Origin: Acuticoccus yangtzensis | Lineage (GTDB): Bacteria; Pseudomonadota; Alphaproteobacteria; Rhizobiales; Amorphaceae | DNA: 64,000 nt | NCBI RefSeq assembly: GCF_001927245.1 | Contig: NZ_MJUX01000004.1 | Span: 248,001 to 312,000, forward strand | Direction of reading: 5' to 3' | Part shown: positions 1,423 to 4,999 of the stretch, one piece after another | How positions within the stretch are numbered: the first letter of the stretch is position 1 | Layout of the letters: each line of letters begins with the position of its first letter | The notes under the pieces: generated by a model | Seen by the model: the letters and a program-made list of their open reading frames with translations, nothing else | What the model was told of the DNA's origin: nothing | Databases searched by the model: none | Program-made: the position numbers and the translations under genes

Positions 1423-1869
1423 ATGACCCTCATCTCAACGCGCCTCGCGGCGTCCTTCATCGTTGCGGCGATGCTTGCCGGTCCGGCGTGGGCCGAGACG
1501 GCCGCGCCGACGCCCGCAGCGCCCAATCTCGGCCTGTCGCTCAACAGCCTGCAGACCGAGGGGAGCGCCTGCCGCGTCACCTTCGTGGCCACCAACGCCA
1601 TGGGCGTGGAGGTCGACGATCTGGGCATCGAGGTCGCCATCTTCCGCAAAGGCGGCGCGCTGGAGCGGCTGATGCGGCTCAATCTCGGCCACTTCCTCGA
1701 CGGCAAGACGCGCGTGCGCCAGTTCGACCTCGCCGGCACCGACTGCACCGCCGTCGAAGCGATCCTCATCAACGACGTCACCGCGTGCGACGGCGACGGG
1801 CTCGACCCGCTGGTTTGCCTGCGCGCCATCACCGCCACCTCCAACACCGACACCGGATTCAGCCTGTGA
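1423..1869 (+). CDS. Small secreted four-cysteine protein leading the exb/tonB operon
   Basis: Unrecognised 148-residue protein. The first 25 residues form a clear Sec signal peptide (hydrophobic core LAASFIVAAMLAGP, cleavage after AWA). The mature part has four cysteines (contexts GSACRV, GTDCTA, VTACDG, LVCLR), an even number that would allow two disulfides in the periplasm. Its stop overlaps the GTG start of exbB by two bases, so it is translationally coupled to that gene and probably acts with the ExbB/ExbD/TonB machine. The ATG at 1423 is chosen because the signal peptide follows it directly; an upstream in-frame ATG at 1318 would place 35 non-hydrophobic residues in front. Function unknown. 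Confidence 0.75.
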   Translation: MTLISTRLAASFIVAAMLAGPAWAETAAPTPAAPNLGLSLNSLQTEGSACRVTFVATNAMGVEVDDLGIEVAIFRKGGALERLMRLNLGHFLDGKTRVRQFDLAGTDCTAVEAILINDVTACDGDGLDPLVCLRAITATSNTDTGFSL

Positions 1870-2588
1870 ACTTCGAAACGATCGTTCAGAGCCTCGTCGC
1901 CCGGCTCCAGGCCGAGGACGGCATCCTGTCCGTTCTCGCCCTCGGCGGGCCGGTGGTCATGCTGCTCGTCGCCCTGTCGGTGGTGATGATCGCGGTCAGC
2001 CTCATCAAGCTCGCCCAGTTCGCGCGCGCCGGTGTCGGTCGCCACGGTGCGGCGGAGCGTGCGGTCGAGACGGCGCTGCGCGGCGAGGCGGACGGGCGTC
2101 AGCGCTCCGGCGGCCCGCTGAGCCGCCAGGTCATCGCGCTGCAGATCGCCGAGGGGACGAACACCGCCGACGCGCGCGAGGCGGCCGAGAGCTACGCCGC
2201 GCTGCGCCTGCACCAGCTCCGCAAACTGGTGAACCTCCTCGACACCATCGCCCAGATCTCGCCTCTGCTGGGCCTTTTCGGCACCGTTCTCGGGATGATC
2301 GAGGCGTTTCAGGCGCTGGAGGGGGCGGGCAGCGCGGTCGACCCGTCGATCCTGGCGGGCGGGATCTGGGTGGCGCTCCTCACCACCGCGGTCGGCCTCG
2401 CGGTGGCGATGCCCGCGTCGGTCATCTCGTCCTGGTTCGAGTCGCGGATCGAGAACGAGCGGGTGGCGCTCGACACCTTGATCAGCCGCCTGGCGACGGG
2501 GTCGCGCGCCGGCCGCCTCGCCCACCCCGCCCGGCGCGGCGCCGGTCCCCGCGGCCCCGGCGATGCCGCCGCCCTCGCGGCCGAATGA
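1866..2588 (+). CDS. exbB: MotA/TolQ/ExbB proton channel family protein
   Basis: Inner-membrane stator subunit that, with ExbD, turns the proton gradient into movement of TonB; 240 residues. Three membrane segments are visible (about 21-50, 131-148 and 167-190). The second carries ISPLLGLFGTVLGM with T140, and the third ALLTTAVGLAVAMP with T173/T174, the threonine positions that line the channel in this family. The GTG start overlaps the stop of the preceding secreted-protein gene (GTGA). It lies in an operon with two exbD genes and tonB. The 25-residue Gly/Ala/Pro-rich tail is not conserved-looking. TolQ is less likely because no tolA, tolB or pal follows. Confidence 0.9.
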   Translation: MNFETIVQSLVARLQAEDGILSVLALGGPVVMLLVALSVVMIAVSLIKLAQFARAGVGRHGAAERAVETALRGEADGRQRSGGPLSRQVIALQIAEGTNTADAREAAESYAALRLHQLRKLVNLLDTIAQISPLLGLFGTVLGMIEAFQALEGAGSAVDPSILAGGIWVALLTTAVGLAVAMPASVISSWFESRIENERVALDTLISRLATGSRAGRLAHPARRGAGPRGPGDAAALAAE

Positions 2589-2625
2589 TGGGCGCCTTCA
2601 ACCCGGCCGGCACGACGAGGCGCGC

Positions 2626-3030
2626 GTGATCGCCGCGCCCGTGCGCAAGAGGCGCCGCCTGCCGCTGACACCGCTGATCGACGTCATCTTCCTGCTGCTC
2701 CTCTTCTTCATGCTGTCGTCCACCTTCCTGCGCTTTGCCGATGTCGAAGTGGCCGCCGCCGCGGGTGCCTCGCCCCGCGCCGCCGCGCCCGCGGGCGACA
2801 CGGCACTCCTGAAGCTCAGGTTCGACGGTACGCTGGCGCTCGGCCCCCGCACCGTGGCGCTCGCCGACCTCGCCGCGGAACTGTCGGCGCTGCCTGGGGA
2901 CGGGATCGCGCGGCTGATCCTCACCGCCGACCGCGGCGCCTCCGTTCAGGCGCTGGTGGAGGTGCTGGAGGTGGTGGAGGCCGGGGCGCTGCCGGTGATC
3001 CTCGCCGCCCCCCCGGAGGAGACGCCGTGA
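2626..3030 (+). CDS. exbD: ExbD/TolR family biopolymer transport protein, canonical copy
   Basis: Single-pass stator protein of 134 residues with a short basic cytoplasmic head (RKRRRLP), one membrane helix (about 15-35) and a periplasmic domain. The helix holds the invariant aspartate in PLIDVIFLLLLFF (D19), equivalent to the proton-carrying Asp of E. coli ExbD/TolR. I chose the GTG at 2626 because GAGG lies just before it and the basic head follows at once; an ATG at 2563 in the same frame would overlap exbB by 26 bases and add 21 residues. The second exbD starts four bases before its end. Confidence 0.88.
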   Translation: MIAAPVRKRRRLPLTPLIDVIFLLLLFFMLSSTFLRFADVEVAAAAGASPRAAAPAGDTALLKLRFDGTLALGPRTVALADLAAELSALPGDGIARLILTADRGASVQALVEVLEVVEAGALPVILAAPPEETP

Positions 3031-3443
3031 GCCGCCTGCGCGCCCCCGCCCGCAAGGCCGACAAGGGCGAGCCGACGATCGCGCTCATCAACGTCGTCTT
3101 CCTGCTGCTCGTCTTCTTCCTCGTCGCCGGTACGCTGTCGGCGCCGCGCGATGCCGCGGTGGAGCTCGCCGACTCGACCGCCTTCGACCCCGCCGCGCTG
3201 GACCCCGCCGCGATCTACGTGGACGCCGGGGGACAGTTGCGCGTGATGGGTGAGGCCGTCGCCGCCGAGGAGGCCATCGCGCGGGTTGAGGCGGTTGCGA
3301 CGCCGGAGCCCGGCGCGCCGCTCACCATCGTGCCCGACCGTACGCTCGACGCGCGCGATATGCTGGCCCGCCTCGCCGCCTTGCGCGCGGCGACGGATCG
3401 GCCGCTGACGATCCTCACCCGCCGCCGCACGGAGGCCGATTGA
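3027..3443 (+). CDS. Second ExbD-like protein with Asn replacing the membrane Asp
   Basis: 138-residue ExbD/TolR-type protein: basic head, one membrane helix (about 17-37), periplasmic C-terminal domain. Aligned with the upstream copy, PLIDVIFLLLLFF becomes ALINVVFLLLVFF, so the proton-carrying aspartate is an asparagine (N22). The rest of the helix is conserved, so this is a real paralogue rather than a decayed copy. It starts with GTG overlapping the previous stop and its own stop overlaps tonB, so all four are translationally coupled. Known of the family: loss of this Asp in E. coli ExbD or TolR abolishes energy transduction. I infer that this copy needs the canonical ExbD as a partner, perhaps as a heterodimer in one ExbB pentamer. 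Confidence 0.85.
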   Translation: MSRLRAPARKADKGEPTIALINVVFLLLVFFLVAGTLSAPRDAAVELADSTAFDPAALDPAAIYVDAGGQLRVMGEAVAAEEAIARVEAVATPEPGAPLTIVPDRTLDARDMLARLAALRAATDRPLTILTRRRTEAD

Positions 3444-4684
3444 TGGCCTTGCGCATTTCGCCCCGCGCGTGGATCGCCGCCGTCGTCCTGTCGCTGATCA
3501 TCCATTTGACGATCGCGCTGGCGATGACCGAGACGGGAACGCCCCCCGCTCCGAGCGAGGCGGCGGCGACGCCTGTCACCATCGTGGTGGAACCGACCGC
3601 GCTGGAGGAGGTGACGACGGAGGCGGCCGAGGCGGAGGCGATCGAGGCCGCCGCCGTCGCGCCCGACGAGGGGCTCGAGGCGGAGATCGCGGACGCGGAC
3701 GAGGCCGCCCCGGTCGAGCCGAGCGAAGCGGAGCCGGTGGCGGACGCGGACCCTGCGCCGGTGGACGCCGCGGCCGTGGATGCGGAGGTCGTCGAGGCGG
3801 ACGCCGCCGAGGTGGACGCGGCGCCGGTGGAGACGGTCGAAGTCGTCACCGAGCCGGCCCCTGCAGAGATCGTGCCCGCGGACGCTGTGGCGGTCGCCGA
3901 GGCCGCGCCGCTCGAACTGGAGGTGGCCGAGGTTCCCCCGGTCGATCCCACCCCGGTCGAGGTGGCGATGGCGGCCCCCGAACCGCCGGCAGAGCCGGTG
4001 GCCGAAGCGCCGCCCCCCGCGCCCGCCGAGGACGCCGGCGAGGCAGACACGCAGGCGGCTACAGTCGAGCCCGTGCCCGATATCGCCCAGCGCCCGGCCG
4101 ATCCGACGATCGCCTTCCCGATGGCGCGCCCCTCCCCCGACGCGCCGCAGGAGCCGCCGACCGCCGAGGAGATGGCCGCCTTCGAGAGCGTGCCCGTGCC
4201 GCTCTTCAACCCCGCGACGCCCGCCGAGCGAGCCGCGGCCGATGCGCGGTTCCGCGCGCGTGAGGCCCGCCGGATGGCCGAGGCGCGCCGCGCCGCGCAG
4301 GAGCGCCGCGAGGCCGAGGCGCAGCGCGCGGCGACCCGCCGTGCCGCGGCGGCGGAGGCGCGCACGACGCGCCGTGCCGCGCGCACCGGCGGAAGGACAT
4401 CCGGCGCCCAGGCCGCCGCCGCGGAGGCGGCCTACGGGCGTGCCGTCCGCTCCCGCGTCGCACAGGCGTTCGGGCGGCAGGGCGCGCGGGGTCGCGGCCG
4501 CGCCGTGGTGCGCTTCACCGTCGGCCGCAACGGCGCGGTGTCGGGTGTGACGCTGGTCGAGAGTTCCGGCGACCGCGGCATCGACCGTGCCGCCCTCGCC
4601 GCCCTCAACACACGCTTCCCCGCCTTTCCCGCCTCGGTCACGCGGGCGAGCCTGTCCTTCGCCATTCCCCTCCGCGTCCAGTAG
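3443..4684 (+). CDS. tonB: TonB family protein with very long acidic Ala/Glu/Val/Pro linker
   Basis: 413 residues. Residues 9-28 form the N-terminal membrane anchor, with the SxxxH motif of TonB (S17 and H21 in LSLIIH). A linker of about 230 residues rich in A, E, V, D and P replaces the usual Pro-Glu/Pro-Lys spacer. Residues about 265-320 are strongly Arg/Ala-rich and probably helical. The TonB C-terminal domain (about 332-413) contains RAVVRFTVGRNGAVSGVTL and ESSGDRGIDRAAL. It spans the periplasm and energises outer-membrane receptors; none is encoded nearby. ATG 3443 overlaps the exbD stop; a TTG one codon earlier is an alternative start. The linker's alternating acidic composition is unlike most TonBs and would suit a long rod. 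Confidence 0.88.
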   Translation: MALRISPRAWIAAVVLSLIIHLTIALAMTETGTPPAPSEAAATPVTIVVEPTALEEVTTEAAEAEAIEAAAVAPDEGLEAEIADADEAAPVEPSEAEPVADADPAPVDAAAVDAEVVEADAAEVDAAPVETVEVVTEPAPAEIVPADAVAVAEAAPLELEVAEVPPVDPTPVEVAMAAPEPPAEPVAEAPPPAPAEDAGEADTQAATVEPVPDIAQRPADPTIAFPMARPSPDAPQEPPTAEEMAAFESVPVPLFNPATPAERAAADARFRAREARRMAEARRAAQERREAEAQRAATRRAAAAEARTTRRAARTGGRTSGAQAAAAEAAYGRAVRSRVAQAFGRQGARGRGRAVVRFTVGRNGAVSGVTLVESSGDRGIDRAALAALNTRFPAFPASVTRASLSFAIPLRVQ

Positions 4685-4922: not shown

Positions 4923-4999
4923 TGGTCGGAGTGGCAGGATTTGAACCTGCGACCCCCTCGTCCCGAACGAGGTGCGCTACCAGGCTGCGCTACACTCCG
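4923..4999 (-). tRNA. tRNA-Pro (anticodon CGG)
   Basis: Reading the minus strand, the acceptor stem CGGAGTG pairs with CACTCCG, followed by discriminator A and an encoded CCA (4923-4925). The anticodon arm CTCGTTCGGGACGAG has loop TTCGGGA, giving anticodon CGG, which reads the proline codon CCG. The T-arm contains GGTTCAAATCC. All stems close without mismatches. Confidence 0.95.

Follow-up and report, generated by a model that had tools for sequence, protein, structure and literature searches.

The operon and its genes

The window, i.e., the whole 64,000-nucleotide stretch of DNA analysed here, belongs to the 5.04 Mb genome of Acuticoccus yangtzensis and carries a tight operon of five plus-strand genes at positions 1423–4684, encoding a small secreted protein, ExbB, ExbD1, ExbD2, and a TonB-like protein. 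The first gene (1423–1869) encodes a protein with a signal peptide, here called U, for which no match was found in Pfam or NCBIfam. The second (1866–2588, GTG start) was identified by Pfam as exbB, the proton channel subunit of the MotA/TolQ/ExbB type. When aligned with its E. coli counterpart this ExbB retains both threonines of the pore (E. coli T148 and T181) and has Val at the position of E. coli Glu176. The last gene (3443–4684), whose ATG shares 1 bp with the stop codon of exbD2, matches Pfam TonB_C and TonB_2 as well as TIGR01352. Its product, a TonB-like energy transducer, has an N-terminal helix with an SxxxH motif (SLIIH) and a D-box-like stretch, TPVTIVVEP, both recognised by eye in comparison with a published account (PMC10907165). 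The region from 1866 to 4684 is thus a Ton system operon, with exbB, exbD, and tonB adjacent to each other. Just past the operon a tRNA-Pro (CGG) is encoded on the minus strand (4923–4999).

The two exbD genes lie in tandem and share 4 bp (GTGA). ExbD1 (2626–3030, GTG start) has a basic cytoplasmic N-terminus and a TPxxD motif, and its pore motif, LTPLIDVIFLLLLFF, includes Asp19 (codon GAC at 2680–2682), the equivalent of E. coli ExbD Asp25. ExbD2 (3027–3443, GTG start) has the pore motif TIALINVVFLLLVFF, which includes Asn22 (codon AAC at 3090–3092). The Asn22 residue aligns with E. coli Asp25, so that the expected proton-carrying Asp is present in ExbD1 and replaced by Asn in ExbD2, exactly at the residue named in the earlier reading made from the sequence alone (the sequence-only reading). 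Both proteins match the ExbD family PF02472 well above the cut-off of 25.4 bits (ExbD1, 58.8 bits, E = 7e-16; ExbD2, 49.1 bits, E = 8e-13). For ExbD2 AlphaFold2 predicts a helix at residues 17–36 followed by an alpha/beta domain (pLDDT 86), and the top PDB matches of this model in Foldseek are the ExbD periplasmic domains 8pek, 8vgd, 8vgc, and 8p9r (probability 1.00, E about 0.002–0.01), while a profile search of the PDB returned ExbD and TolR entries only. Judged from these models ExbD2 has the one N-terminal transmembrane helix and the periplasmic ExbD fold that define the ExbD/TolR family.

Other Ton and Tol genes of the genome

The A. yangtzensis genome contains five ExbD-family genes, i.e., tolR, the pair in the window, and another pair on contig C1. 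The TolR protein (contig C26) has Asp at the pore position, and the paralogous pair on C1 is again Asp then Asn. The C1 operon is arranged exbB-exbD1-exbD2 and has no detectable tonB. Its ExbD1 (locus L281, 6915–7862; an open reading frame of 315 aa) carries a long, repetitive C-terminal tail rich in Gly, Ala, and Thr, unlike the other ExbDs seen. A third ExbB paralogue is found on contig C27 (174847–176924; locus L282, 1348–3425), where it is followed directly by tonB with no exbD in between, and the C27 exbB-tonB and C1 exbB-exbD1-exbD2 genes may complement each other. One TonB-dependent receptor barrel was found in the genome (contig C23, 456432–457562), as opposed to three ExbB-type Ton operons, and the motors may therefore serve more than classical receptors.

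Asp-Asn pairs are widespread

Relatives were gathered from named genomes, from the phylum and class, and by direct retrieval. The first homologue search, within the order, used the unmasked window protein; thereafter the pore residue was masked as X in the ExbD2 query alignment, and the pattern used for searching genome contigs started past the pore residue. The later searches were consequently without bias towards Asn. In total 277 loci from alpha- and gammaproteobacteria were obtained, which gave 262 unique ExbD groups. Among these were 209 unique tandem pairs with Asp in the first and Asn in the second ExbD (D/N pairs), always in that order and nearly all from other genomes, 44 solo ExbDs that all have Asp, five Asp-Asp pairs, one Asp-Ser pair, and three edge or overlap artefacts. 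Carriers of D/N pairs include Yoonia, Roseovarius, Sulfitobacter, Nitratireductor, Hoeflea, and Pseudovibrio, and further Alloalcanivorax, Thalassolituus, Teredinibacter waterburyi, and Salinisphaera. No relative was encoded on viral contigs, and a single plasmid record, from Acuticoccus sp. I52.16.1, contained one. Similar pairs in other alphaproteobacteria, as mentioned in the sequence-only reading, are real and extend into the gammaproteobacteria.

Within the subfamily defined by the D/N pairs Asp is found in every first ExbD, and the second ExbD has Asn in 209 of 211 pairs, the other two being one Asp-Asp and one Asp-Ser pair. The suggested check for fixation of Asn in the second copy thus came out in favour of it, and Asp was found in the close homologues only as one isolated reversion (genome G025). 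Four of the five Asp-Asp pairs (L243, L250, L254, and L255) fall into another subfamily whose motif is TPML[D], and the fifth (L038, genome G025) sits within the Asn clade. In complete loci no N-type ExbD was found without a D-type partner; two apparent records of Asn alone are explained by an artefact of overlap (L015) and by the end of a contig (L227), and the latter, along with L190 (Tyr), also at a contig edge, was left out of the counts. Sequencing error or an isolated mutation can be dismissed as the origin of Asn22, given the Asn in the paralogous C1 operon and in the 209 pairs. The notion that tandem exbD genes are always of the D/N type was likewise rejected, both by the Asp-Asp tandems and by published data (PMC8599685). 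In L088, a metagenome-assembled genome from deep Lake Baikal, the second ExbD has Ser at the pore site (LPLISVVFLMLTFF), which is likewise non-protonatable.

The two genes also lie close together. The median gap from the ExbD1 stop to the ExbD2 start is 2 bp, and a 4-bp overlap is found in 69 of 206 cases. A TonB homologue adjoins most D/N operons with long flanks. A homologue of U directly 5' of exbB is found in most alphaproteobacterial D/N operons; among the D/N loci with long flanks 39 of 57 have one, almost all of these being alphaproteobacterial. Protein U may be a Ton accessory protein.

A single origin and selection for Asn

In a FastTree phylogeny of 166 ExbD domains, made with the pore column masked, the Asn-type ExbD2 proteins form a clade of their own, with a local support of 98, and the ExbD1 proteins group apart, although the tree is built from few columns and has many weak forks. 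A minimum of two changes between Asp and Asn is needed on this tree, i.e., a single gain of Asn from Asp and a single return to Asp, in G025. The codons for Asp and Asn (GAY and AAY) are one transition apart, and the near absence of reversion therefore means that Asn is under selection. The sole Asn-to-Asp reversion in an ExbD2 of the subfamily (L038/L124, genome G025) still lacks the Thr of the pore motif, and as a natural variant it allows the role of Asn to be judged by comparison.

The Asn is accompanied by other differences between the two copies. In the aligned set Asp is found in 203/203 ExbD1 and Asn in 203/203 ExbD2 proteins, which follows from the choice of D/N pairs. Thr21, four residues before the pore site in the TPxxD motif, is present in 197 of 209 ExbD1 proteins and in only 5 of 209 ExbD2 proteins, where it is otherwise I, L, or V. 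The cytoplasmic stretch of ExbD1 is strongly basic (mean net charge +3.3), whereas 95% of ExbD2 proteins have an acidic residue close to where the helix enters the membrane from the cytoplasmic side. Conservation in ExbD2 is highest in the transmembrane helix, where among 203 sequences N25 and L29 are invariant and F28, F33, and F34 nearly so. This conservation bears on the idea that ExbD2 has its place outside the pore, where it docks TonB or peptidoglycan and has kept its Asn for packing. The periplasmic domain of ExbD2 does have the ExbD fold, which in E. coli binds TonB, but a helix conserved to this extent suits the ExbB lumen rather than exposure to lipid, and we regard a docking role as distinctly unlikely.

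The ExbB proteins of D/N operons have kept the threonines of the pore. Thr181 is present in 203/203, and the equivalent of Thr148 in all 158 with a recognised motif, the pattern leaving the other 45 unresolved. The Glu176 position is nonpolar in 136 of 203 D/N operons compared to 3 of 41 beside a solo ExbD, counts that are phylogenetically non-independent. It could be argued from this that the ring has co-adapted, i.e., that protons take a second path provided by ExbB or water, that both halves of the axle carry protons, and that the Asn has little mechanistic effect; the lineage that reverted to Asp (L038) and kept its operon would also fit. The change at Glu176, however, takes a carboxylate away and adds none, and an Asn without effect would not become fixed. 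As a carboxylate is removed and 57 D/N operons keep Glu, the change is linked to lineage rather than compensatory, and compensation by the ring is very improbable. A strict coupling of Glu176 loss to Asn is ruled out by the same 57 operons.

Do ExbD1 and ExbD2 pair?

Covariation between the two proteins was analysed in 203 paired sequences (effective number about 180) by mean-field direct coupling analysis, with 112 data sets simulated along the tree without coupling as the null. ExbD1–ExbD2 pairs were among the strongest couplings (27–20, 115–49, 35–34, 126–50, 29–35, and 71–47 in E. coli numbering). For site classes that were set partly after the top pairs had been seen, and of which several were tested, the helix–helix (TM1–TM2) couplings had a top-5 mean of 6.25 compared to 4.10 in the simulations (as high in 1 of 112), and the couplings of ExbD2 strand 44–50 with the ExbD1 core reached 5.20 compared to 3.59 (as high in 0 of 112). 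Residues 44–49 form a swapped intermolecular strand in the ExbD homodimer (PMC10771500). The reciprocal class, ExbD1 strand with ExbD2 core, did not exceed the null (97 of 112), the couplings within each protein did so barely (16 of 112), and 40–24, one of the top helix pairs, is too distant for a parallel dimer. In 35 rows of the survey exbD1 reads through into exbD2 in frame; an AlphaFold2 model of one such product, from a relative (locus L191), had a pTM of 0.72 and a pLDDT of 79.6, which, for an artificial single chain modelled on its own, with no ExbB and no homodimer control, is compatible with a defined pair. The covariation above a tree-based null, though weak, suggests a heterodimer. 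The heterodimeric ExbD proposed in the sequence-only reading thus gains indirect support from the invariable co-occurrence and order of the two genes, their overlap, the opposite charge patterns, and the covariation, and ExbD1 and ExbD2 may well pair physically.

Asp-to-Asn variants of ExbD and MotB are classically inactive. This lends some weight to a different role for ExbD2, namely as a separate non-motor subunit whose Asn homodimers occupy some ExbB rings as a brake, a plug, or a reserve against proton leak, while homodimers of ExbD1 drive the motor. Strict conservation of Asn would also fit an inhibitory role, and the covariation that speaks for a heterodimer is modest. A brake should nevertheless be lost occasionally, yet in 209 pairs both genes are retained, in the same order and with almost no gap between them, and the opposite charge patterns together with the strand–core coupling favour direct pairing. 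We therefore consider the separate inhibitory subunit unlikely.

A proposed motor with a single proton site

According to the models now accepted for MotAB, TolQR, and ExbBD, the dimeric axle turns 36 degrees per proton and consumes ten protons per revolution, with both aspartates used in turn (PMC9389320; PMC12215075). The same 5:2 architecture, i.e., five ring and two axle subunits, presumably applies here, as assumed from homology (PMC9389320; PMC12215075). The reading that we favour, and consider probable with ample room for doubt, is a Ton-type motor in which an obligate ExbD1–ExbD2 axle with a single protonatable site turns inside the ExbB ring. In such a motor ExbD1 would provide the sole protonatable side chain of the axle, the Asp, and ExbD2 would be a proton-dead partner helix, whose Asn may mimic an Asp that is always protonated and could form hydrogen bonds with the ring of ExbB threonines. 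The ring would presumably consist of five ExbB proteins, and we infer a 5:1:1 arrangement. In E. coli a single TonB D-box is held by the periplasmic domains of a pair of ExbDs, with one chain parallel and the other antiparallel (PMC10907165), and the working dimer is therefore asymmetric in any case. Since both periplasmic domains are still ExbD-like, such a pair could still hold the D-box of TonB.

A changed proton-per-step stoichiometry, as put forward in the sequence-only reading, is plausible but hypothetical; with a single proton site about half the protons would be spent per turn, i.e., five compared to ten in the 36-degree model. It is tempting to speculate that the D/N operons encode a widespread natural Ton motor with an obligate heterodimer and one protonatable site, which uses about five protons per turn in 72-degree power strokes and has one passive, permanently neutral helix. 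We hold this full version tentatively, as a serious possibility. If true, the two aspartates of 5:2 motors would be optional rather than required.

This version of the proton-driven Ton motor, with two ExbDs of which one has held on to its Asn through deep evolution where the essential Asp would be, is found in many bacteria of the sea and of soils. If ExbD1 and ExbD2 pair, it would be a natural rotary motor with only one of its two axle helices able to carry a proton. Such a motor, one of whose sites has been kept dead since an ancient duplication, would amount to a natural test of the need for both sites, of the gearing, and of the grip of an asymmetric axle on one TonB strand. A motor with distinguishable axle subunits would also offer a handle for purification and break the symmetry that blurs structures.

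Comparison with known systems

Tandem exbD genes as such are already known from Sphingobium SYK-6, where an apparently essential tonB1-exbB1-exbD1-exbD2 operon (PMC8599685) resembles the one described here in being an alphaproteobacterial Ton operon with two exbD genes; it differs in that Asp25 is kept in both copies (PMC8599685). An earlier description of an Asn-type ExbD or of an ExbD heterodimer was not found in the openly licensed PMC literature, and a genetic study of TonB in Teredinibacter names TonB clusters of other types and no D/N operon (PMC10734418). The Asp-Asp tandems of our survey (L243, L250, L254, and L255) similarly have two adjacent exbD genes beside one exbB, but have Asp in both copies and cluster with the solo ExbDs, apart from the D/N pairs.

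The ExbB-ExbD-TonB system of E. coli and Serratia, the 5:2 Ton motor, shares with the A. yangtzensis operon its components, the TPxxD motif and Asp of ExbD1, the Thr pair of the ExbB pore, and the periplasmic fold of ExbD. E. coli has a single exbD, whose product forms a homodimer with two Asp, whereas the A. yangtzensis operon has a pair of exbD genes, of which the second encodes Asn and lacks the Thr. A likeness in subunit composition is also seen in the AglR-AglQ-AglS gliding motor of Myxococcus, which combines one ring protein of the MotA/TolQ type with two paralogues of the MotB/TolR type (PMC9389320), and for which formation of an AglQ-AglS heterodimer was an open question in 2022 (PMC9389320). 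In contrast to the D/N pairs both AglQ and AglS have the aspartate (PMC9389320), and the motor drives gliding and is not linked to TonB.
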